NCBI RefSeq assembly: GCF_001940455.1
Contig: NZ_MKQR01000018.1
Span: forward strand, 220,439-284,438
Reading direction: 5' to 3'
Source of the DNA: Actinokineospora bangkokensis
Lineage (GTDB): Bacteria > Actinomycetota > Actinomycetes > Mycobacteriales > Pseudonocardiaceae
Length of the DNA: 64,000 nucleotides
Of the stretch, positions 1,112 through 64,000 are shown in pieces. Each line of letters begins with the position of its first letter. Position 1 is the stretch's first letter. The notes under the pieces were generated by a model. That model did no database searches, was not told the origin of the DNA, and saw nothing but the letters and a program-made list of their open reading frames with translations. A program made the position numbers and the translations under genes.

Positions 1112-3031
1112 TCAAATGTTGATCTCGGTGACCATACCGAAACCCACCGTTTTATCGTCTTGTCGGACCGTGAAACGGTCGCCAACTGCCATAGCTACCG
1201 ACGACACCAATCGAACGCCGACGCGCGAGGAAGATTTAGCGTCATCGGTGGGTAAGAATCGAATCAAGCCGGAGATTTCAACGCCATGAAAGTAGAAGTC
1301 AGCCCGTTTTGGGCGGTTGCCCGAAAGAAAGCAAACACAGCTATAGAAGTCGATGTGAGCGGCCACCGAACCTGATAGGGCGACAATTTGCGCACCCGCT
1401 ACGTCCCTACGACGTACGTCGCGGAAAAGCAGGGCGACGTTCTCGCCCGGGCCCGCCCTATTCATCAGTTTCCGATATTTGTCGACGCTTTCCACGACCG
1501 TAGGTACTGGTCGTTCACGCGTACCTACCAGTTCGACTGCCATGCCAGGATAGACACGGCCCTGCTGGATTTGCCCGGTGATCAAGACCCCTGAGTCGCT
1601 GGCTGGGATGCGGTTTTCGATCATGAGGCGAAACGGGAGGTTGGCCTCCCAATTCGGGTCCGGCACATGCTGTTCGAGCGTGGTTACCAGATCGCGCATG
1701 GATTGGACCCACCTTCGCTCGCCTTTCAGCGCACCCTCGGCGGATACACGCACCACGGGCGTCGCATGCCTGGAATAACCGTTGGCGTCCAGCAGATCAC
1801 GGATCATTAGCTCGACCAACTCGGTGAGTTCCTGGTCGATGGCGGTGTCGGCGAAGGTCAACGCGACCACGACGGACGGAACCCCAGCCTGCCGAGCGAG
1901 TTGGAGCTGGACAAAAGTCTCTGGGAGCGGTCCGTCCAAGGCGGAGACGGCAAGGATTACGGCATCCGGCCGGACCACGCCGGTAACCACATTCTTGACG
2001 TAGTCGGCATGGCTGCGAAAGACGACGTGGTCAAACCGGGTCCGGTCGGTCTCGTACCCGACGTGCGCGAGGCTGATCGAGAGACCGCGGTGGACGTCGT
2101 GCTGGTAGCCCGCACTGATCTCGTCGCGCGTGTCCTCGTCGTGCAGGACCTTGGTGATCGCCACGGTCAGCGTCGTCTTGCCGTGACCAGTCTGTCCCAG
2201 CACTGCAATGGTCATGAAGGGCCTGCGTCCGGTCGACGCGGTCGCGGGGAGAGCCAGCAACGCGGGCTCCGCCGATGTTGACTTTGGCGGGACAAATGCG
2301 GCGTTGCGGGCCAACGCCAACCGCAGGACGTTGTCGGTGCCGTACTGCTTCGGAGTAGGCCAGCCCTCCTCGCGCATACGACGGGCCAGGCGTTGGTAGA
2401 TGAACTCCAGGTTGAGCTCCGGCGGCCCCTCGGGCACGCCCTCGCGGAGTAGCGCCAACAACTCACCAGAGAACGCAGTGTGTTCGGCGCCGGGCGGTGC
2501 GAGCGCGACCATGTTCGCCGGGGTCGCTGCTAGCGTGTATGTGCCTCGCACACCGAACTGGCCCTGCATTAATGCGTCTTGATCGGCGAGGAACCCGTCG
2601 ACCGCGAGCCCGGAGAAGCAACAGTCGAGGATGAGGACCTTGGTGGTGGCGACGCTGTCCAGCAACTCGTCCCGAATCCACGCGAACGGCAGCGCGGAGT
2701 ACTGCGGGCGGGCCGGGTCGGTGGCAGACAGCCCCAGAAACAGCTCCTGCCGACGGGTGCCGATCAGCCCATGGCCGCTGTAGTAGATGAGCAGGACATC
2801 CTCGGCGCTCGCGGCCACGTCGGCCAGCTGCCGCGCCACACCGGCCTGGTCGACCTGGTTCTCGATTACCAAGCATCGGTCCGGCGCGAACGCCCCACGC
2901 TCTGGCTCGGTCAGTGCCGCCCGCAGCGCCGTGAGGTTGTTGGCAACCGACGGCAGATCCGGAAGCGCCATACTGTCGTAGCTGCTCGCACCGATGAGGA
3001 CGGCGTGCGAGCGGGACTTGTCGGGCAGCAT
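1112..3031 (-). CDS. EACC1-associated caspase fused to an EF-Tu-like GTPase module
   Basis: A 639-residue fusion. Residues 1-245 are a C14 caspase-like protease: catalytic His87 sits in YYSGHG and the cysteine in LDCCFSG (Cys138, possibly Cys137). A Pro/Ala/Ser-rich linker (about 246-270) leads to a near complete EF-Tu homologue (272-639) that aligns with E. coli EF-Tu through all three domains. P-loop GQTGHGKTT (279-287) and switch I core RGLSI (315-319) are kept. The DxxG motif (DCPGH in EF-Tu) is VFRSH, and NKCD is TFAD, so GTP hydrolysis and guanine specificity are probably lost. HADYVKN (341-347) and the C-terminal KTVGFG (Thr628, aligning with EF-Tu Thr382) are preserved. Caspases of this type are known as effectors in bacterial conflict systems. 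My inference is that the EF-Tu part acts as bait or sensor. The start lies 3 bases after the EACC1 stop, so the two are cotranscribed. GC content is below that of flanking genes. Confidence 0.9.
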   Translation of the reverse strand: MLPDKSRSHAVLIGASSYDSMALPDLPSVANNLTALRAALTEPERGAFAPDRCLVIENQVDQAGVARQLADVAASAEDVLLIYYSGHGLIGTRRQELFLGLSATDPARPQYSALPFAWIRDELLDSVATTKVLILDCCFSGLAVDGFLADQDALMQGQFGVRGTYTLAATPANMVALAPPGAEHTAFSGELLALLREGVPEGPPELNLEFIYQRLARRMREEGWPTPKQYGTDNVLRLALARNAAFVPPKSTSAEPALLALPATASTGRRPFMTIAVLGQTGHGKTTLTVAITKVLHDEDTRDEISAGYQHDVHRGLSISLAHVGYETDRTRFDHVVFRSHADYVKNVVTGVVRPDAVILAVSALDGPLPETFVQLQLARQAGVPSVVVALTFADTAIDQELTELVELMIRDLLDANGYSRHATPVVRVSAEGALKGERRWVQSMRDLVTTLEQHVPDPNWEANLPFRLMIENRIPASDSGVLITGQIQQGRVYPGMAVELVGTRERPVPTVVESVDKYRKLMNRAGPGENVALLFRDVRRRDVAGAQIVALSGSVAAHIDFYSCVCFLSGNRPKRADFYFHGVEISGLIRFLPTDDAKSSSRVGVRLVSSVAMAVGDRFTVRQDDKTVGFGMVTEINI

Positions 3032-27153: not shown

Positions 27154-28275
27154 ATGACCCGAGGACAAGGGCCACACCTCGCCGTCGCGCTGGACGGCGC
27201 GGGGTGGCACCCCGCCGCGTGGCGGGAGCCGGACGCCCGGCCCGCCGAGCTGTTCACCGCCCGGTACTGGACCGACCTGGTGCTGGAGGCGCAGGCCGCG
27301 CTGCTCGACTTCGTCACCATCGAGGACACCCTGGCCCTGCAGCAGGGCGGGTCCCCCGAGGCCACCGACCGGGTGCGCGGGCGGCTGGACGCGGTGCTCA
27401 TCGCCGCCAGGGTCGCCCCGGTCACCTCCGGCATCGGCCTGGTGCCCACCATCGTCACCACGCACACCGAGCCGTTCCACATCTCCAAGGCGATCGCGAC
27501 CCTGGACTACGTCAGCACCGGGCGCGCGGGCGTGCGGGTGCGGGTGGGCCGCCCGCACGAGTACCCCCACTTCGGCCGCCGCGACCCCGAGCAGGACCGC
27601 ACGGACCTGTTCGCCGAGGCCGCCGACTACGTCGAGGTCGTGCGCAGGCTGTGGGACAGCTGGGAGGACGACGCGGAGATCCGCGACGTGGCCACCGGCC
27701 GGTTCGTCGACCGGGACAAGCTGCACTACATCGACTTCGAGGGCGAGCACTTCTCGGTCAAGGGCCCGTCGATCACCCCGCGCCCGCCGCAGGGGCAGCC
27801 GCTGGTGACGGCCCTGGCCCACCAGGAGGTCCCGTTCCGGTTCGCGGAGCAGGCCGCCGACCTCGCCTACGTCACCCCGACCGACCGCGGCGACGCCGAG
27901 CGGATCGTGCAGCGGCTCTCCGCCCTGCCGCACGTGTTCGCCGACCTGGTGGTGTTCCTCGACCAGGAGCCCGGTGCCGCCGCCGACCGGCTGGCCCGGC
28001 TGGACGAGGCGGTCGGCAAGCCCTACGCCTCCGACGCGCACGTGTTCACCGGCACCCCGGCCGAGCTGGCCGACCTGCTGCTGGACTGGCACGCCGCGGG
28101 CGTCACCGGGTTCCGGCTGCGGCCGGGCGCGGTCCCGCACGACCTGGTGGCCATCACCCGGGGCCTGGTGCCGGAGCTGCGCGGGCGCGGGGCGTTCCGC
28201 ACCGCCTACTCCGCCCCCACCCTGCGCGGGCTGCTCGGCCTGCCCCGCCCCGCCAACCGCTACGCGACGGTCTGA
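27154..28275 (+). CDS. LLM-class flavin-dependent oxidoreductase
   Basis: 373 residues of the bacterial luciferase-like TIM barrel: LDFVTIEDTLALQ, IAARVAPVTSGIGLVPTIVT and ISKAIATLDYVSTGRAGVRV are the characteristic strands. These enzymes oxidise carbon-sulphur, carbon-nitrogen or carbonyl substrates with FMNH2 and oxygen. GGAAGGAG precedes the ATG. Position downstream of the importer and next to a second family member suggests both work on the imported compound. Confidence 0.9.
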   Translation: MTRGQGPHLAVALDGAGWHPAAWREPDARPAELFTARYWTDLVLEAQAALLDFVTIEDTLALQQGGSPEATDRVRGRLDAVLIAARVAPVTSGIGLVPTIVTTHTEPFHISKAIATLDYVSTGRAGVRVRVGRPHEYPHFGRRDPEQDRTDLFAEAADYVEVVRRLWDSWEDDAEIRDVATGRFVDRDKLHYIDFEGEHFSVKGPSITPRPPQGQPLVTALAHQEVPFRFAEQAADLAYVTPTDRGDAERIVQRLSALPHVFADLVVFLDQEPGAAADRLARLDEAVGKPYASDAHVFTGTPAELADLLLDWHAAGVTGFRLRPGAVPHDLVAITRGLVPELRGRGAFRTAYSAPTLRGLLGLPRPANRYATV

Positions 28276-28285
28276 GGAGGACCCG

Positions 28286-29623
28286 GTGAGCAAGCCGTTG
28301 AAGCAGATCCACCTGGCCGCCCACTTCCCCGGGGTGAACAACACGACCGTGTGGTCGGACCCGGAGGCGGGCAGCCACATCGACTTCAGCTCGTTCGTGC
28401 GGCTGGCCCAGACCGCCGAGCGGGCCAAGTTCGACCTGTTCTTCCTGGCCGAGGGCCTGCGGCTGCGCGAGCAGGGCGGGCAGATCTACGACCTCGACGT
28501 CGTCGGCCGCCCCGACACCTTCACCGTGCTCGCCGCGCTGGCCGCGGTCACCGAGCGGCTGGGGCTGGCGGGCACGATCAACTCCACGTTCAACGAGCCG
28601 TTCGAGGTGGCCCGCCAGTTCGCCTCGCTGGACCACCTGTCCGCGGGCCGGGCGGCGTGGAACGTGGTCACCTCCTGGGACGCCTTCACCGGGGAGAACT
28701 TCCGCCGCGGCGGCTTCCTGCCCAAGGAGCAGCGCTACGAGCGCGCGGAGACCTTCATGCGCACCACCTGGGAGCTGTTCGACTCCTGGAAGGGCGACGA
28801 GGTGGTGGCCGACAAGGAGTCCGGGGTCTTCCTGTCCGACCCGGGCGCGGGCACCTTCGCCCACCACGACCACCACTTCGACATCTCCGGCCGCTTCACC
28901 GTCCCGCGCAGCCCGCAGGGCCGCCCGGTGATCCTGCAGGCGGGCGACTCCGACGAGGGCCGCGAGTTCGCCGCCGCCACCGCCGACGCCATCTTCTCCC
29001 GGCACGGCACCCTGGAGGCGGGCCAGGCGTTCTACCGCGACGTCAAGGGCAGGCTGGCCAAGCACGGTCGCCAGGAGCACCAGCTCAAGATCCTGCCCGC
29101 GGCCACCTTCGTGCTCGCCGACACCGACGCCGAGGCCGTGGACAAGGCCGCCGAGGTGCGCAAGCAGCAGGTGAGCCCGGCGACGGCGATCAAGTTCCTG
29201 GAGCAGCTGTGGAACACCGACCTGTCCGCGCACGACCCGGACGGGCCGCTGCCCGCGTTCGACCCGGTGGTCAGCGATGACCTGATCTCCAAGGGCCGGG
29301 CCAGCGTCCGGATGTACCGCGACCCGGTGGCGACGGCGAACGAGTGGCGCGAGCTGGCCGCGGCCAAGGGGTTGAGCAGCCGCGAGGTCGTCATCGAGCA
29401 GACCGGGCGGCAGAACTTCATCGGGTCCGCGGCCACCGTGGCCGACCAGATCAACGCGCTGGTGCAGGCGGACGCCGCGGACGGGTTCATCCTGGTGCCG
29501 CACGTGACCCCCGGCGGGCTGGACCGCTTCGCCGACGAGGTCGTGCCGCTGTTGCAGGAGAAGGGCGTGTTCCGCACCGAGTACACCGGCAGCACGCTGC
29601 GGGAGCACTTGGCGCTGGATTGA
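28286..29623 (+). CDS. NtaA/SnaA/DmoA family FMN-dependent monooxygenase
   Basis: 445 residues. Characteristic motifs of this longer LLM subgroup are FDLFFLAEGLRLRE, EPFEVARQFASLDHLSAGRA, AWNVVTSWD, ENFRRGGF and QAGDSDEGREFAA. Members include nitrilotriacetate, dibenzothiophene-sulphone and dimethylsulphide monooxygenases, all supplied with FMNH2 by a separate reductase. GTG 28286 is preceded by GAGGAGG and follows the previous stop by 10 bases. A stem-loop ends the operon at 29645. Confidence 0.92.
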   Translation: MSKPLKQIHLAAHFPGVNNTTVWSDPEAGSHIDFSSFVRLAQTAERAKFDLFFLAEGLRLREQGGQIYDLDVVGRPDTFTVLAALAAVTERLGLAGTINSTFNEPFEVARQFASLDHLSAGRAAWNVVTSWDAFTGENFRRGGFLPKEQRYERAETFMRTTWELFDSWKGDEVVADKESGVFLSDPGAGTFAHHDHHFDISGRFTVPRSPQGRPVILQAGDSDEGREFAAATADAIFSRHGTLEAGQAFYRDVKGRLAKHGRQEHQLKILPAATFVLADTDAEAVDKAAEVRKQQVSPATAIKFLEQLWNTDLSAHDPDGPLPAFDPVVSDDLISKGRASVRMYRDPVATANEWRELAAAKGLSSREVVIEQTGRQNFIGSAATVADQINALVQADAADGFILVPHVTPGGLDRFADEVVPLLQEKGVFRTEYTGSTLREHLALD

Positions 29624-29644
29624 GCCCGGGTCGTGGCCCGGGGT

Positions 29645-29689
29645 GAGGGGGCGGTGGCGGGGGCGGTGGCGTCGCGCCACCGCCCCCTC
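29645..29689 (+). terminator. hairpin terminator of the ABC/monooxygenase operon
   Basis: GAGGGGGCGGTGGC pairs with GCCACCGCCCCCTC (14 bp). The 5' arm is partly duplicated (GGGGCGGTGGC twice), so alternative pairings exist. Confidence 0.65.
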
Positions 29690-29770
29690 GCCGTCTTGCC
29701 GGGGCCGCGACCGACCGGCTTGGAGCCGGGCCACCCCGCGTCGTATCGTGCGGCCGAGGAGGTGGGTCGG

Positions 29771-31207
29771 GTGATCCGGGTCGACGGCAGGACGTTGCGG
29801 TGCGCGGACGTGGTGCGCGCGGCGGGGTCCGAGGGGCCACTGTGGATCGACGTCTCCACCGCGGCGGTGCGCGCCGCCGAGCAGGCCTGGAAGCTGGCCG
29901 GTGAGCTGTCCACCCGGCGGGTGATCTACGGGCGCACCACCGGGGTCGGGGCGAACAAGGACGACGCGGTCGACGACTCCGCCGAGCACGGCTCGCGGAT
30001 CCTGCGCAGCCACGCGGGCGGCGCCGGGGAGCTGATGCCCGCCGGTCAGGTGCGCGGGATGCTGCTCATCCGGCTCAACCAGCTCCTCGCCGCGCGGTCG
30101 GGGGTGGCGCCGGACCTCATCTCGGCGCTGGCGCAGGCGGTGGGCACCGGGTCGCTGCCGGTGGTGCACTCGGTGGGGGCCATCGGCACCGGCGACCTCA
30201 CCGCCCTGGCGGAGACGGCGCTGGCGCTGACCGGGGAGCGGCCGTGGCAGCGCGGCGGGGTGCCGCCGGTGGCGATCCAGGCCGGGGACGCGCTGGGGTT
30301 CCTCAGCAGCAACGCGGCCACGCTGGCGGAGGCGACGCTGGCGGCGATGGAGTTCGACACGCTGTGCCGGGCGGCGAACGCGGTGGCGGCGCTGAGCTAC
30401 GTGGCCCTCGACGGCAACCCGGAGGCCTACGCGGCACCGGTGCACGAGGCGCGCCCGCACGCCGGGCAGGTCGCGTGCGCGGCGCAGGTGCGGCGGCTGC
30501 TGGGGCTGCACTCGGCGCCCAAGCCGGGGCGGCGGATCCAGGACCCGTTCGGGCTGCGGGCGTTCCCGCAGGTGCAGGGGCCCGCGGTGGACGCGGTGCA
30601 CTACCTGCGCGACGTGCTGGCCATCGAGATCAACGCGGGCACGGAGAACCCGCTGATCTCCACCGTCCACTCCGACGCCTACCACCACGCCCACTTCCAC
30701 ACCGCCTACGTCTCCACCGCGCTCGACCAGGCCAGGGCGACGCTGCACCAGTCGGCCGAGCTGTCGGTGGCGCGCCTGGGCGACCTGCTGGAACCGGACT
30801 TCACCGGCCTGCGCGCGTTCCTGGCGGCGGGCCCGCCGGGCAGCAGCGGGCTGATGATCCTGGAGTACGTGGCCCACGACGCGCTGGCCGGGCTGCGGGC
30901 GGCGGCGCTGCCCTCGACCCTGGGGTCGGCGGTGATCTCGCGGGGCATGGAGGACCACGCCAGCTTCTCCACCCAGTCGGCGCGGGCGGCGACCGCGGCC
31001 GCGGCGGGCTACCGGCAGGTGCTCGCCTGCGAGCTGCTGGCCGCCGTGCGCGCGCTGCGGCTGCGGCAGGCGGACCTGGTGGACCTGCCCGTGCGCGCGG
31101 CGTTCGAGCTGGCGGACGAGGCGCTGGACCCCGGCCTCGACGACCGGCCGCTCACCGCCGACATCGCCAGGGCCGCCGCCCTGCTGGACGCGCTCGCGGC
31201 GGTGTAG
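29771..31207 (+). CDS. histidine/aromatic ammonia-lyase family protein with altered MIO motif
   Basis: 478 residues, all-helical HAL/PAL fold. The active-site Tyr loop is IYGRTTGVGAN (canonical YGxNTGFG), and later motifs include YVALDGNPEAY, GRRIQDPFGLRAFPQVQGP and GTENPL. The position of the Ala-Ser-Gly triad that cyclises to MIO reads SVGAIGTGDL (134-143): the serine before GDL is Thr140, or two residues are inserted. A normal MIO may therefore not form. GTG 29771 has GAGGAGG upstream. It follows a terminator, so it is a separate unit. Whether it is an active lyase, a mutase or something else is open. Confidence 0.8.
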   Translation: MIRVDGRTLRCADVVRAAGSEGPLWIDVSTAAVRAAEQAWKLAGELSTRRVIYGRTTGVGANKDDAVDDSAEHGSRILRSHAGGAGELMPAGQVRGMLLIRLNQLLAARSGVAPDLISALAQAVGTGSLPVVHSVGAIGTGDLTALAETALALTGERPWQRGGVPPVAIQAGDALGFLSSNAATLAEATLAAMEFDTLCRAANAVAALSYVALDGNPEAYAAPVHEARPHAGQVACAAQVRRLLGLHSAPKPGRRIQDPFGLRAFPQVQGPAVDAVHYLRDVLAIEINAGTENPLISTVHSDAYHHAHFHTAYVSTALDQARATLHQSAELSVARLGDLLEPDFTGLRAFLAAGPPGSSGLMILEYVAHDALAGLRAAALPSTLGSAVISRGMEDHASFSTQSARAATAAAAGYRQVLACELLAAVRALRLRQADLVDLPVRAAFELADEALDPGLDDRPLTADIARAAALLDALAAV

Positions 31208-50832: not shown

Positions 50833-52068
50833 TCACCGAGCCGCTGGGTGCACGGGCTCGTGCACGTGCTTGCGCAGGCCGGGGGTGCATGCGGCGACCG
50901 CCAAGACCGCCGCCACGCACAGCGCGCCGCCGCTGACCAACGCCGTCGTCCCCGAGGTGGCGCTCGCCACCAGACCGGCCCGCATGTTCCCGACCTCCGG
51001 CCCCGCGAACCCCACCGCCAACTCCGCGGCCCCCACCCGGCCCATCAGCTCGTCGGGGGTGTTCAGCTGCACGATGGCGTTGCGCGACACCACCGACGCG
51101 GTGTCCGCCGCACCCGCGACCACGAGCAGCGCCAACCCCGCCCACGGGTTCGCCACCAGCCCGAACAGCAGCAGCGCCACACCCCACGACAGCGACCCGA
51201 CCAGCATCACGACGCCCTGCCGGGGCAGCGACGTGAACGTCCCCGACAGCGCGGACGCCACCACCCCGCCCACGGCGACCGCGGACAGGAACAGCCCCAG
51301 CGTGCGCGGGTCGTCGCCGAACCGCTCGGCGTTGACCAGCGGGAACAGGCTCACCGGCATCGACAGCACGGTGGCGGCGAGGTCGGTGACCAGCGCGCCG
51401 CGCACCGTCGCGTGGCCCACCAGGAACCGCAGCCCGTCGAGCACCCCGCCGAGCCCGGCCCTGGCGGGCTCACCCCCGGGCAGCATCGCGGGCAGCCCGA
51501 ACGCGCCGAGGAACGCCGCGCTGAACGACGCCGCGTCCAGGGCGTAGCAGCCGACGACCCCGGTGAAGCCGATGAGCACCCCGCCGACCGCCGGACCCGC
51601 GAGCATGGCCACCTGCCCGGTGATCCGCTGCAACGCCAACCCCGCGGCCAGCTGCTCGGGCGGCAGCAGCCGGGGCAGGAACGTGCGCGCCGCGGGCCCG
51701 CCACCGGCGATGAAGCACGCCTGCACGGCCACGATCACCAACACCACGCCGATCGGCGCGCCCAGCACCGCCTGCACCACGAGCAGCACCGCGCACGCCG
51801 CCTGCCCGACGAGCGTCCACAAGTAGAAGCGCCTGCGGTCGACCCGGTCCACCAGCGCGCCCGCGAACGGGCCGAGGAACACCATCGGCAACCCCTGCGC
51901 CAGGCCGACCGCGCCCGTCCACACCGTCGACCCGGTGTCCCGCCAGACCTGGTACATCACCGCGACCAGGGTCAGCTGCGAGCCGAACGCGGAGAACGAC
52001 CGCCCCACCCACAGCGCGCGGAACGCCCGCGAGGCGCGCAGCGGCCGCAGGTCGACCATCACCCCCAT
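50833..52068 (-). CDS. MFS transporter, enterobactin-exporter-like
   Basis: 411 residues with 10-12 predicted helices. FRALWVGRSFSAFGSQLTLVA and the A-motif-like loop GALVDRVDRRRFYLW mark the MFS3/EntS-type exporters. ATG 52068 (alternative ATG 52059) overlaps the end of the MarR gene, giving translational coupling. The product is probably a drug or metabolite efflux pump under control of that regulator. Confidence 0.92.
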   Translation of the reverse strand: MGVMVDLRPLRASRAFRALWVGRSFSAFGSQLTLVAVMYQVWRDTGSTVWTGAVGLAQGLPMVFLGPFAGALVDRVDRRRFYLWTLVGQAACAVLLVVQAVLGAPIGVVLVIVAVQACFIAGGGPAARTFLPRLLPPEQLAAGLALQRITGQVAMLAGPAVGGVLIGFTGVVGCYALDAASFSAAFLGAFGLPAMLPGGEPARAGLGGVLDGLRFLVGHATVRGALVTDLAATVLSMPVSLFPLVNAERFGDDPRTLGLFLSAVAVGGVVASALSGTFTSLPRQGVVMLVGSLSWGVALLLFGLVANPWAGLALLVVAGAADTASVVSRNAIVQLNTPDELMGRVGAAELAVGFAGPEVGNMRAGLVASATSGTTALVSGGALCVAAVLAVAACTPGLRKHVHEPVHPAAR

Positions 52069-52574
52069 TCCGGGTCCTCGGCCAACCGCGCGGAGATCCG
52101 CTCGTGGAAGCCGCGCCGGGCCAGCGCGGCCCGCAGGTCGTCCACCACCCGCGACAGCGGGTAGGGCACCTCGGCCTCCAGCTCGGCGAGGGCGGCCTCG
52201 GTGGCGCGCCACTCGGCGGCCAGCGCCCCGACCACCCCGCGCGCCTTCGCGGTGAGGGTGACGCGCTTGCTGCGCGCGTCGGGCCCGGGGACGGTGCGCA
52301 CGAGCCCGGCCTCGCGCATGGCCTTGACCTTCTGGCTCAGCGCGGAGTGCGTGCGCTGCACGGACGCGGCCAGCTCGGTGATCGTCATGGGGCCCTGCGC
52401 GTGCAGCCGGATCAGCTCCATGACGAAGCTCGGCTTGAGCCCGGGCAGCCCCCGGTCGGCGTAGAGGCGCGCGATGTCGGCGTCCATGTCCTGCTGGAGC
52501 AGCCGCAGCGAGCGCCAGCGGCTCTGCCCGGTGGGGTCCTCGGGCACGGGGTCCTGACCTGCGTCTTCGGGCAC
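52059..52574 (-). CDS. MarR family transcriptional regulator of the efflux gene
   Basis: 171 residues. The helix-turn-helix is MTITELAASVQRTHSALSQKV and the wing PDARSKRVTLT. GTG 52574 is preferred because the operator palindrome ends 10 bases upstream and codons further upstream would run through it. There is no Shine-Dalgarno sequence, suggesting a leaderless message. It is the first gene of a two-gene operon with the MFS exporter. Confidence 0.88.
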   Translation of the reverse strand: MPEDAGQDPVPEDPTGQSRWRSLRLLQQDMDADIARLYADRGLPGLKPSFVMELIRLHAQGPMTITELAASVQRTHSALSQKVKAMREAGLVRTVPGPDARSKRVTLTAKARGVVGALAAEWRATEAALAELEAEVPYPLSRVVDDLRAALARRGFHERISARLAEDPEWG

Positions 52575-59930: not shown

Positions 59931-59979
59931 CTCCCCCGGTCCGCCGTCGGGCGGACCCGGGTGCGAGGAGGTGCGATCG

Positions 59980-60597
59980 GTGGTGGAACGGCCGGTGGGG
60001 GCGCAGGAGTGGGTGCCCGGGGACGGTGGCCTGGACGAGCTGCGGGCGGCGATCGGGGGCTGCCGGGGGTGCGGCCTGTTCGAGCACGCCACGCAGCCGG
60101 TGTTCGGGCGGGGGCCCGCGGCGGCGCGGGTGGTGGTGGTCGGGGAGCAGCCGGGCGACCACGAGGACGTCGACGGGGAGCCGTTCACCGGCCCCGCGGG
60201 CAAGCTGCTGGACCGGGCGTTGGTGGAGGTGGGCCTGGACCGGGGCGAGCTGTACCTGACGAACGCGGTGAAGCACTTCCGGTTCCGCAGGCAGGGAAAG
60301 CGGCGCATCCACGAGACGCCCCGGCGCAGCGAGGTGGTGGCCTGCACGCCGTGGTTGGCCGCCGAGCTGGACCGGTTGTCCCCGGAGACGGTGGTGTGCC
60401 TGGGGGCGACGGCGGCCAAGGCGGTGCTCGGGCCGTCGTTCAAGCTCACCGAGCACCGGGGCGAGGAACTGCGCCCCGACGACGGGTTGGCGGCGGGATT
60501 GCGGGTGGTCACGACCGTCCACCCGTCGGCGGTATTGCGCGCACCCGACCGGGACAGCGCTTATGCCGACTTCGTCGCGGACCTCAAGGTGGTGTGA
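59980..60597 (+). CDS. UdgX family uracil-DNA glycosylase
   Basis: 205 residues. GEQPGDHED (54-62) and PFTGPAG are the family 4-like motifs. KRRIHETP (107-114) is the UdgX-specific loop whose His (His111) forms a covalent bond to the abasic deoxyribose. TTVHPSAVLR is motif 2, and C-R-G-C plus further Cys provide the Fe-S ligands. UdgX traps itself on uracil sites in DNA. GTG 59980 has GAGGAGG upstream (59971 would overlap it). Divergent from the SigF operon. Confidence 0.93.
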   Translation: MVERPVGAQEWVPGDGGLDELRAAIGGCRGCGLFEHATQPVFGRGPAAARVVVVGEQPGDHEDVDGEPFTGPAGKLLDRALVEVGLDRGELYLTNAVKHFRFRRQGKRRIHETPRRSEVVACTPWLAAELDRLSPETVVCLGATAAKAVLGPSFKLTEHRGEELRPDDGLAAGLRVVTTVHPSAVLRAPDRDSAYADFVADLKVV

Positions 60598-60625: not shown

Positions 60626-61843
60626 CTATTCCGGGCAATGCAGGTAGAAGCTGGTGATGCCCCGGTCGTCGAGGACGCGCACCATGTCCGGGCGGCCGTG
60701 CACGAACATCTCCGGTTCCACCCGCATGCGGTGCTTCCCGGTCTTCGCGGAACGGGAGAGCACGCCGATCCCGTGGTAGGGCAGCAACCGCGCGCTGAAC
60801 TTGTACTCGGGCATCAGGCGCAGCCCCAGCACCGGGATCGGCTTGGTGTGGATGGTGGCGCGGATGGCCCCCGGGAAGGCCAGCTCCTCCCACCGCAGGT
60901 CGGTGGCGGCCAGCTTCATCGCCCGGTACTCGTCCAGCGCCCAGCGCGAGCGCTCCCGGATGCCGTCGCCCAGGCCCGCCTCGCCCGCACCCAGGAAGGT
61001 CGACCGCAGCTCGTCGTAGCTCAGGCCGAGCTTGCGGATGTCGATGCTGGCCATCATGCTGCCCAGCCACCGGTCGTGCTCGGCGCCGGTGATCCCGTCG
61101 GCGCAGCGGTCGCGGCGCAGCGCGCGGAACCAGGCGTCGAACCGCTCCTGGAACCGCGGCACCACCGGTCGCAGCACGTCGGACATGTCGTGCAGGACCA
61201 CCCGCCCGGCCAGGCCCAGCGCCTCGACCCGCCCGCGCAGCTCGGCGACGTAGTTGACCGCCTCCACCGAGGTCACGCCGAAGGGCGGGCTGTAGAAGGT
61301 GCTGTCGGAGATGACGTGCACGACCGCGCCGGGCGCGTGCACCCTGCCCAGCAGCTCCGCGAAGCGGCCCAGGTGCAGCAGGGCGACGTCCTCGGCGGCG
61401 GTGGCGGCGGTGAGGTCGAAGCGCTTGACCGGGTTGCCGATCACGCAGAACGCGGGCAGCACCACCGCCAGCGGCCGGCCCGCGCGCACCGCGTCGACCA
61501 CCCGCGCCCGCCACGGGGAGTCGGCGGCGGCGAAGGCGGCGCGGGAGTTGAACTGGAAGGCGCGGTGGTTGAGCAGGGCCAGCACCCGCTCCACCGGGTC
61601 GTCGTCGCGGTGCAGCCGCGCGAACCGCTCCCAGCAGAACCGCGGCGACTCCGCCGACCCCAGCACCAGGGCGCGCAGGTCCGCGTCCAGCTCCCTGGTG
61701 CGCCCGGCGCGGTCGAGCGGGTCCGCCTCGGGCCATTCCGAGGGGCGGTACAGACCGGAATCGGTAATGGCTTCCCCGTGCGCGGCGACCGCCGCGTAAC
61801 CGTCGTTCCGGGTTCCTCTGCGGGCCAGGGTCTGCACGGGCAC
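60626..61843 (-). CDS. isonitrile (isocyanide) synthase, PvcA/DIT1 family
   Basis: About 405 residues from GTG 61843, which has GGGGGGA 6 bases upstream; an in-frame GTG at 61981 is the longest alternative. LPAFCVIGNPVKRFDL (about 129) and VHVISDSTFYSPPFGV (about 178) match the PvcA-family blocks, and LLPYHGIGVLS and IRATIHTKPIPVLGLRL lie in the C-terminal half. The family makes L-tyrosine/L-tryptophan isonitriles from the amino acid and ribulose-5-phosphate. No PvcB-like Fe/alpha-ketoglutarate dioxygenase or NRPS is nearby. A TetR gene lies upstream on the same strand. Confidence 0.82.
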   Translation of the reverse strand: MPVQTLARRGTRNDGYAAVAAHGEAITDSGLYRPSEWPEADPLDRAGRTRELDADLRALVLGSAESPRFCWERFARLHRDDDPVERVLALLNHRAFQFNSRAAFAAADSPWRARVVDAVRAGRPLAVVLPAFCVIGNPVKRFDLTAATAAEDVALLHLGRFAELLGRVHAPGAVVHVISDSTFYSPPFGVTSVEAVNYVAELRGRVEALGLAGRVVLHDMSDVLRPVVPRFQERFDAWFRALRRDRCADGITGAEHDRWLGSMMASIDIRKLGLSYDELRSTFLGAGEAGLGDGIRERSRWALDEYRAMKLAATDLRWEELAFPGAIRATIHTKPIPVLGLRLMPEYKFSARLLPYHGIGVLSRSAKTGKHRMRVEPEMFVHGRPDMVRVLDDRGITSFYLHCPE

Positions 61844-62017
61844 GGAAATTCCCCCCGGATTGACGTCGTCGACAATGGGCGGCGCGGTGAATTGCCACCA
61901 CCTTCCGGGCCACGAGCAGGTCGTGTCAAGCGCCGGAAAGTTCCCGTCCGCTTTTCGCGAATCGGGTGAGCAAGTCACCACCGGGGTTCTATCACGCCGG
62001 GAGCCGGGCCGCGGCGG

Positions 62018-62683
62018 TCAGCGGCGGGTCTCGAACAGGATCAGCGCGGTGTCGGTGAACATGCCCTCCAGGTCGGGCAGGCCGGGCGCGCCCGCGGTGT
62101 AGAGGCGGTGGCGGATGCGCTCGGCGGTGCCGCCGATGTAGAGGTCGAAGGTCTGCGGGGCGACCTCGCGCACCGCCGGGTCGGCGGCGCGGGCGCGGTC
62201 GTGCAGGGTGCGGAAGATGCCCGCGAAGGCCGCGTTGACCGCGCTGGTGCGCCTGGCCAGCTCCGGCCCGGCGCGCAGCGTCTCGATGTAGAGCGACCAC
62301 GCCGCGTCCGGGTGCCCGGCCAGCGCGGCGAGGAACGCCCGCCAGGACAGCCGGATCCGGCTCGCCCAGTCGTGCTTGGCCACCGGGTCGAGCGCGTCGC
62401 GCAGCGAGGAGCTGACCTCGGCGACGGCGGCGTCGAAGGCCGCCAGGAAGCAGGCCTGCTTGTCGTCGAAGTGCTCGTAGAAGGTCCGCCGGGACACCTC
62501 GGCGCGCACCACGAGGTCGTTGACGGTGGCGTCCGGGTAGCCCTTGGCCGCCACGACGTGCAGCACGGCCTCGATCAGCCTGCCCCGCTGCGAGGCCGCG
62601 ATGTCCTCGCGGCTGAGCCCGTGCCTGCCGCGGGGGAGCTGCCGCGGGCTGCGACCGGCCTGCCCGGAATTCACGCGGGCCAC
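62018..62683 (-). CDS. TetR family transcriptional regulator
   Basis: 221 residues. The helix-turn-helix is VNDLVVRAEVSRRTFYEHFDDKQACF, preceded by IEAVLHVVAAKGYPDATV. The C-terminal ligand domain is helical (ALAGHPDAAWSLYIETL). GTG 62683 has GGAGGGG 7 bases upstream. It lies upstream of the isonitrile synthase in the same direction, with 174 bases between, and may control it or itself. Confidence 0.92.
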   Translation of the reverse strand: MARVNSGQAGRSPRQLPRGRHGLSREDIAASQRGRLIEAVLHVVAAKGYPDATVNDLVVRAEVSRRTFYEHFDDKQACFLAAFDAAVAEVSSSLRDALDPVAKHDWASRIRLSWRAFLAALAGHPDAAWSLYIETLRAGPELARRTSAVNAAFAGIFRTLHDRARAADPAVREVAPQTFDLYIGGTAERIRHRLYTAGAPGLPDLEGMFTDTALILFETRR

Positions 62684-62868
62684 GTTATCACCCCTCCACA
62701 GGCCCCCGGCGAAATGTCGTCGGCCCACCCACAACCGCCGATTCCACAATTGCGCCGGGCACCGCCGGTGTGGTTGTCTCTGCTCTGGGTACGGTCGTGT
62801 TCCCAAGCGGGCCGCACCACCGGCACACCCCCGGGGCTGGGGAAACGGGTCCACACGCCTCGGGTACG

Positions 62869-62929: not shown

Positions 62930-64000
62930 CTACGACGGCAACGACCCCCGCAACCGCCCCGACACCAGGCGGATGAACCGGGCCGAGTCGGGCAGCTCGC
63001 CGCCCTCGGCCAGCACCGCGAGGTCGTGCAGGAGCGACGCGGTCTCGGCCAACCCCTCGTCCTCGGGCCGGGCCTCGTGCGCGGCGCGCAGCGACGACAC
63101 CAGCTCGTGGTCGGGGTTGAGCTCCAGGATCCGCTTGACCTTGGGCAGCTCGTGGCCCATCGCCCGGTACATCTTCTCCAGGTTGGGCGCGAGGTCGTCG
63201 GCGTCGCCGACCACGCAGGCGGGCGAGGTGGTCAGGCGGCTGGAGAGCCGGACCTCCTTGACGGTGTCCTTGAGCGCCTCGGACATCCAGCCCAGGAAGT
63301 CCTTGAACTGCTCCTGCTTCTGCTCGTCCTTGGCCTCGTCCAGGTCGACCTGGCCCTTGGCGATCGACTGGAACTTCTTCCCGTCGAACTCCGGCACCGC
63401 GTCCACCCACATCTCGTCGATGGGGTCGGTGAGCACCAGCACCTCGTAGCCCTTGGCCCGGAACGCCTCCAGGTGCGGGGAGTTCTCGATGACCGCCCGG
63501 TTGTCGCCGGTCATGTAGTAGATGTGCTGCTGGCCGTCCTTCATCCGCTCGACGTAGCCGCGCAGCGAGGTCTGCTGCTCGGGGTCGAGGGTGGAGTCGA
63601 ACGAGCAGATCTCCAGGATCGCGTCGCGGTTGTCGGCGTCCTGGACCAGGCCCTCCTTGACCGCCTTGCCGAACTCCGACCAGAACGTCTTGTACTTCTC
63701 CGCGTCCTGCCCGCGCAGCTCCTTGACCGTGGCGAGCACCTTCTTGACCAGGCGGCGGCGGATGAGCTGGATCTGCCGGTCCTGCTGCAGGGTCTCGCGG
63801 GAGACGTTGAGCGAGAGGTCGGCGGCGTCCACCACGCCCTTGACGAAGCGCAGGTACTCCGGGATGAGCGACTCGCAGTCGTCCATGATGAACACGCGCT
63901 TGACGTAGAGCTGGATGCCCCGGTTGGCGTCGCGCATGAACAGGTCGAGCGGGGCGTGCGAGGGGATGAACAGCAGCGCCTGGTACTCGAAGGTGCCCTC
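62930..64000 (-). CDS. htpG: molecular chaperone HtpG (Hsp90), 5' end outside window
   Basis: 356 residues of the C-terminal part. It enters at EGTFEYQALLFIPSHAP and continues through QLYVKRVFIMDDCESLIPEY, the middle-domain NVSRETLQQDRQI and FWSEFGKAVKEG, to the dimerisation domain ending SGRLRGSLPS. The N-terminal ATPase domain lies beyond 64000. Hsp90 proteins assist folding of stress-sensitive clients. Confidence 0.97.
   Translation of the reverse strand, partial: EGTFEYQALLFIPSHAPLDLFMRDANRGIQLYVKRVFIMDDCESLIPEYLRFVKGVVDAADLSLNVSRETLQQDRQIQLIRRRLVKKVLATVKELRGQDAEKYKTFWSEFGKAVKEGLVQDADNRDAILEICSFDSTLDPEQQTSLRGYVERMKDGQQHIYYMTGDNRAVIENSPHLEAFRAKGYEVLVLTDPIDEMWVDAVPEFDGKKFQSIAKGQVDLDEAKDEQKQEQFKDFLGWMSEALKDTVKEVRLSSRLTTSPACVVGDADDLAPNLEKMYRAMGHELPKVKRILELNPDHELVSSLRAAHEARPEDEGLAETASLLHDLAVLAEGGELPDSARFIRLVSGRLRGSLPS

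Follow-up and report, generated by a model that had tools for sequence, protein, structure and literature searches.

A Rare and Very Distant Relative of Isonitrile-Forming Enzymes in Actinokineospora bangkokensis

The 64,000-nucleotide stretch of Actinokineospora bangkokensis DNA analyzed here (the window) encodes a member of the DIT1/PvcA superfamily (table 1), which is a very distant relative of the isonitrile-forming enzymes and belongs to a rare lineage. Our preferred reading, which we hold tentatively and with slightly less than even confidence, is that of a solitary member of a deep DIT1/PvcA branch that has kept the C1 chemistry of the superfamily: the enzyme would combine an amino-acid-like amine with one carbon from a sugar phosphate (e.g., ribulose 5-phosphate) into an isonitrile or N-formyl compound, probably not from Tyr or Trp, and would be expressed from its own promoter rather than via the adjoining TetR gene. 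To our knowledge, few types of isonitrile synthase have been characterized, and only a handful of substrates (Tyr, Trp, and Val) are known for them. A deep branch that has the core residues and lacks a lysine otherwise invariant would test which residues this chemistry needs.

Table 1. Features of the Enzyme Locus (Window Coordinates)
Feature	Position	Strand	Remarks
DIT1/PvcA-superfamily enzyme gene	60626..61843	-	405 aa counted from the GTG codon at 61843; open frame extends to 61981
26-bp conserved element, candidate promoter or operator	61920..61945	-	GGGAACTTTCCGGCGCTTGACACGAC; contains TTGACA; 24/26 positions identical in three species
Second conserved block	61965..61995	-	GTGATAGA...GCTCACC; upstream of enzyme; differs in A. 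pegani by substitutions and a gap of 1 nt
TetR-family regulator gene, 221 aa	62018..62683	-	PF00440 TetR_N, 42.4 bits (cutoff 24); only match
Degenerate palindrome, candidate TetR operator	62786..62805	.	upstream of TetR; 3 mismatches to TGGAAAC-N6-GTTTCCA
htpG-like gene, C-terminal part	62930..64000	-	PF00183 HSP90, 353 bits

Identity and Predicted Fold of the Enzyme

PF05141 (DIT1_PvcA) is the sole Pfam match of the reading frame (41.2 bits, E-value 1.9e-10, cutoff 26.4), the match being limited to residues 163–271 of the 451-aa reading, and the enzyme gene is the only one in the 7.45-Mb genome to match this family at an E-value of 0.001 or below. Searches against PDB sequences returned PvcA (3e59, E-value 5.9e-7) and PIsnA (9dh4/9dhm, E-value 1.7e-4) and nothing else significant. 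Because the Pfam score is above the cutoff and the PDB matches are PvcA and PIsnA, the assignment to the PvcA/DIT1 family made in an earlier, sequence-only reading of this DNA is correct at the superfamily level. Translation likely starts at the GTG codon, which is preceded by GGGGGGAATTTCC, and a comparable layout is found in two congeners. The reading frame is open in three congeneric species, with 65–76% protein identity. Nei–Gojobori (NG86) dN/dS values among congeners, which are rough at the GC content of these genomes, were 0.47–0.53 for the enzyme, 0.38–0.51 for TetR, 0.23–0.32 for htpG, 0.62 for a neighboring hydrolase and 0.20 for SigF. Roughly, a ratio of about 0.5 would argue against free decay, yet gives no sign of strong constraint. 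The gene is more than a chance open reading frame, because it is open in three species, shows these dN/dS values and has kept an upstream element (see below).

Profile and structure comparisons lead to the same relatives. Alignment by hhalign of a profile of the enzyme lineage with one built from 14 canonical members gave a probability of 98.8% (E-value 8.2e-17, columns 111–378). The template-free AF2 model of the enzyme is weak (pLDDT 57; 53 for a second model). Using the first of these weak models, all eight chains retrieved by Foldseek at an E-value of 0.001 or below were PvcA or PIsnA (E-value 1e-6), and VIA-align placed PvcA/PIsnA at Z 12.4 (rmsd 4.4, 234 aligned residues), 11.7 and 11.1, the next entry being a tyrosyl-tRNA synthetase at Z 7.3. 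As far as a weak model can indicate, the enzyme is thus predicted to have a PvcA-type fold, with PvcA and PIsnA as best matches.

The fold also resembles those of class I tyrosyl-tRNA synthetases and cyclodipeptide synthases, which raises the alternative that the enzyme carries out another reaction on the same scaffold, its changed pocket having perhaps lost the C1 chemistry. This we consider unlikely. Tyrosyl-tRNA synthetases (Z 5–7) and cyclodipeptide synthases (Z near 5) do follow PvcA in the VIA-align list, residues invariant in canonical enzymes are lost, and the neighbors of lineage genes are varied (e.g., SDR and MDR-type genes, named from reading, flanking the enzyme gene at locus L060). 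On the other hand, PvcA and PIsnA score 4–5 Z units higher, values under 8 may reflect a mere common arrangement, and the core residues described below are kept.

Phylogenetic Position and Putative Active-Site Residues

A total of 57 open reading frames matched the lineage profile; once duplicates, long fusions (>560 aa) and fragments (<270 aa) had been dropped, 34 alignment rows remained, all of which were used in the tree. The canonical set comprises the 26 rows left when the enzyme lineage, the divergent sequence L056 and the rows of a sister subfamily are set aside, and 14 of these 26 went into the canonical profile (A3). E-values from this profile are 1e-121 for 3e59 and about 1e-112 for PIsnA, which places the solved PvcA/PIsnA enzymes with the canonical clade. 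In the tree, the query, its two congeners, a Nocardia sequence (L017) and L056 are set apart by a branch with 100/100 support that spans some 3.6 changes per column (2.75 + 0.86 on either side of the midpoint root). Long branches drew a warning from the tree program; L056 is one of them, its placement is unsure, and without it the grouping of the four lineage rows has a support of only 76/26.

All four lineage rows retain E151, D180, Y198, R328, H332, P355 and H357. Six of these (E151, D180, Y198, R328, H332 and H357) form a Glu/Asp/Tyr/Arg/His/His core present in 25–26 of the 26 canonical rows, and we infer that they are catalytic. Other positions have changed. The lysine of the FPxKSPN motif, found in 26/26 canonical rows, is an isoleucine in 4/4 lineage rows in the MAFFT alignment, and hhalign likewise places no lysine there. 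The Asp of PDxxE (26/26 canonical rows) and the Gln of IHPQP (25/26) are among the further residues replaced; the sister rows, too, carry a Lys in place of this Gln. K140 falls on the canonical NPxK lysine according to hhalign and one column off according to MAFFT. Key PvcA active-site residues are thus missing in part, since many clade-invariant residues, including the FPxKSPN lysine, have changed, and kept in part, as regards the Glu/Asp/Tyr/Arg/His/His core. Because the lysine invariant in the canonical set is lost, the chemistry of the enzyme may differ.

The suggestion that the gene directs synthesis of a simple aromatic isonitrile is not supported: a long branch separates the enzyme from the clade of the solved Tyr/Trp enzymes, and many residues invariant in that clade are altered. 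It is probably not an ordinary Tyr/Trp isonitrile synthase, and the residue changes suggest that its substrate may be other than Tyr or Trp. Its score against NF045653 (L-tyrosine isonitrile synthase) is 20.9 bits, below the equivalog cutoff of 600, a cutoff that alone says little because one canonical example also misses it at 283 bits. PF05141 membership and the PvcA-like fold speak for a rival reading, in which an ordinary Tyr/Trp isonitrile synthase is under the control of the TetR next to it and has its tailoring enzymes encoded elsewhere. We hold this to be very improbable, given the position of the enzyme far outside the canonical clade, the loss of the canonical Lys, Asp and Gln motifs and an NF045653 score so much lower than that of the canonical example; its regulatory side is taken up with the TetR gene below.

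Distribution of the Lineage

In samples drawn from larger groups of genomes, the enzyme lineage is rare. Three of 16 Actinokineospora genomes carry the gene, the window's own included. The enzyme of Nocardia sp. CDC159 is 54% identical and was the sole strong match among 128 genomes of that genus, where a second match reached an E-value of 9e-11. A plasmid copy in Moraxella osloensis is split by an IS5-family element. Decayed copies occur in 3 of 221 genomes of a genus with small genomes, probably Corynebacterium (G290, G1188 and G1199), and the sister subfamily in four more. A sample of 397 genomes from the order gave matches at 1e-5 in 15 of them: the three Actinokineospora, G290, three of the sister type (G146, G246 and G397) and eight weaker ones (E-values of 3e-9 to 7e-6). 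No relative was detected in the viral contigs searched, and no paper describing the lineage was found within the openly licensed PMC literature.

Acidithiobacillus ferrivorans harbors an N-terminal fragment of a lineage gene, and a search of 229 genomes of its class returned this known fragment only. Genes for a chorismate-binding/aminotransferase protein, a GATase, AurF, EamA and an FMN reductase lie directly before the fragment (L018:4472-10363). The PabAB/AurF/EamA/FMN-reductase genes were considered as pathway partners and dropped, as the arrangement was seen once, beside an N-terminal fragment.

Gene Neighborhood and the MFS Transporter Link

The sequence-only reading had described the gene as lacking the usual PvcB-type or NRPS partner, and this stands for the 39 window open reading frames scanned against Pfam, none of which encodes an NRPS or a PvcB-type Fe/2OG dioxygenase; eight of the 39 matched no family at the thresholds applied, and the frame is probably wrong in some of these. 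The gene at window positions 59971-60597 (+) encodes a UdgX-family uracil-DNA-binding protein (TIGR03914, 244 bits, cutoff 190) containing a KRRIH stretch, which we take to be the UdgX hallmark. Elsewhere in the window, a luciferase-like monooxygenase gene is followed by a gene of the aromatic amino acid lyase family (27974-31207, +), and the start of the window, which is lower in GC (61%), holds an open reading frame (1112-3031, -) that combines caspase-like (Peptidase_C14) and EF-Tu-type GTP-binding domains.

Nine lineage loci have an identifiable 3' end, and at five of them an MFS gene lies directly downstream of the enzyme gene; those without it are the three Actinokineospora loci and L060. 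In Nocardia, the MFS gene overlaps the 3' end of the enzyme gene by 8 nt, and its product shares only 25% identity with the MFS protein of G290. The MFS proteins encoded directly after the enzyme in Moraxella, G290 and G1188 share 42–56% identity with one another, and in G1199 a remnant yields a 34-residue match. In these relatives (Nocardia, Moraxella and the decayed small-genome copies), the MFS protein would move the product. Because no MFS gene is adjacent in Actinokineospora, the product there may stay in the cell or use an unlinked transporter. A dedicated MFS gene elsewhere in the carrier genomes was not found, the best matches reaching 26–28% identity as against 36–42% in three non-carriers. 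The window's own MFS gene (50833-52071) was rejected as the missing partner, as comparison with the MFS of Nocardia showed no significant similarity.

The sister subfamily of 417-aa proteins (L038, L040, L105 and L106, with L039 as more distant kin) resembles the enzyme in its PF05141 match, its length and an HxK in place of HPQ, but is 19–26% identical to it and lies on the opposite side of the 100/100 branch. An MFS gene is directly downstream at all four of its loci, the enzyme gene of L106 being split. At L038 (8210-11445), the PvcA-like gene stands between HAD hydrolase and MFS genes; at L039 (7747-14030), an AMP-binding ligase gene is upstream and HAD-like (by reading) and MFS genes are downstream.

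A broader scenario would see in these loci a new bacterial branch, ancestrally a two-gene unit of enzyme and MFS that mobile DNA carried between Actinobacteria and Proteobacteria. It would export a small isonitrile or formyl compound derived from a non-aromatic amino acid and made by an active site without the canonical first lysine; we regard it as possible, although we lean against it. The pair of enzyme and transporter is small enough for expression and assay.

Alternatively, the Actinokineospora gene may be a relic that is losing its function since its transporter partner is gone. The absence from the carriers of an adjacent MFS gene and of a close MFS relative, the broken copies in other lineages and the dN/dS of about 0.5 would fit such an explanation, which we nevertheless find very unlikely: the frame is open in 3/3 species with its core motifs kept, the 26-bp element upstream is retained and the dN/dS is similar to those of TetR and of the neighboring hydrolase.

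Upstream DNA and the TetR Gene

The 26-bp element upstream of the enzyme gene occurs once, allowing up to three mismatches, in each of the three carriers and is absent from the 13 other genomes of the genus; the reversed pattern, used as a control, gave zero matches. It is found upstream of the enzyme whether or not TetR lies at the locus. In A. spheciospongiae it is non-coding, because the enzyme's reading frame has a stop codon within it, and in A. pegani it lies within an imperfect inverted repeat. As judged from this conservation, the element may be a promoter or an operator. A role as a regulon signal was rejected, as the element is found only at the enzyme gene across the 16 genomes of the genus.

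In two of the three carriers, the window's genome and A. spheciospongiae, the TetR gene is directly upstream of the enzyme gene and shares its orientation. This arrangement is what had suggested regulation of the enzyme by TetR, and it also counts in favor of the TetR-controlled Tyr/Trp synthase considered above. The linkage is not conserved. In A. pegani, TetR and the enzyme are on separate contigs (C126 and C64), and the enzyme gene directly follows htpG; TetR stands between htpG and the enzyme in the window, and the gene of a secreted-looking protein together with TetR in A. spheciospongiae. TetR orthologs (60–77% identity) are present in five other genomes of the genus, including three without the enzyme (G001, G010 and G013). 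In 5/5 other genomes, TetR adjoins the gene of the secreted-looking protein, of about 200 aa and with an N-terminus resembling a secretion signal (L084, L085, L086, L087 and L096:10721-11323); this gene is divergent from TetR in L096, L084, L085 and L086 and convergent in L087. It was not found in the final 19 kb of the window, on the TetR flank.

The palindrome TGGAAAC-N6-GTTTCCA, a candidate TetR operator, has one match in the window as against 0.52 expected by chance, which is weak alone. Upstream of TetR, it has no mismatch in A. pegani, three in both the window and A. spheciospongiae and four in each of three more distant genomes. The best palindromes upstream of the enzyme have six mismatches in the window and four in both A. 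spheciospongiae and A. pegani, a level of four or fewer being reached in 15 of 2,000 random 200-bp stretches; the two 4-mismatch palindromes, which might be held to favor TetR control in these congeners, are in different places. TetR was rejected as the regulator of the enzyme on linkage, although it might still bind near the enzyme in the congeners, and the proposed control by the upstream TetR is not borne out: the regulator is tied to the secreted-protein gene and occurs without the enzyme. It is probably a bystander at this locus, and in the simplest reading of the linkage it would serve the secreted-protein gene, missing from its flank in the window. The case illustrates that adjacency is not regulation.

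Comparison with Known Systems

The fungal Dit1 proteins and isocyanide synthases carry the same Pfam family name as the enzyme and are likened to it here by that name, not by sequence; the tree rows include no Dit1 sequence. Dit1 has been reported to yield formyl tyrosine (PMC7345447), which would suit a Dit1-like, N-formylating enzyme whose product is an N-formyl amino acid, with the isonitrile absent or an intermediate only. MFS genes are reported from roughly 60% of the isocyanide-synthase clusters of fungi (PMC10153163), which would also suit such an enzyme and parallels the MFS neighbors of the bacterial relatives described above. Against it, a later report describes a stable isonitrile product from a fungus with a Dit1-like protein (PMC13005658), and we judge that a purely formylating enzyme is not likely. 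A P450 partner, as in the fungal Dit1 systems, was not seen at the enzyme locus among the open reading frames scanned.

Whereas Pvc/Isn-type clusters hold a PvcB-type gene, none was found near the enzyme among the 39 window frames scanned. In comparison with PvcA of Pseudomonas aeruginosa (3e59) and PIsnA (9dh4 and 9dhm), which are Tyr/Trp isonitrile synthases, the enzyme is only 14–20% identical in structural alignments and has the Lys of FPxKSPN, the Asp of PDxxE and the Gln of IHPQP all replaced, whereas the predicted fold and the core residues are common to both.
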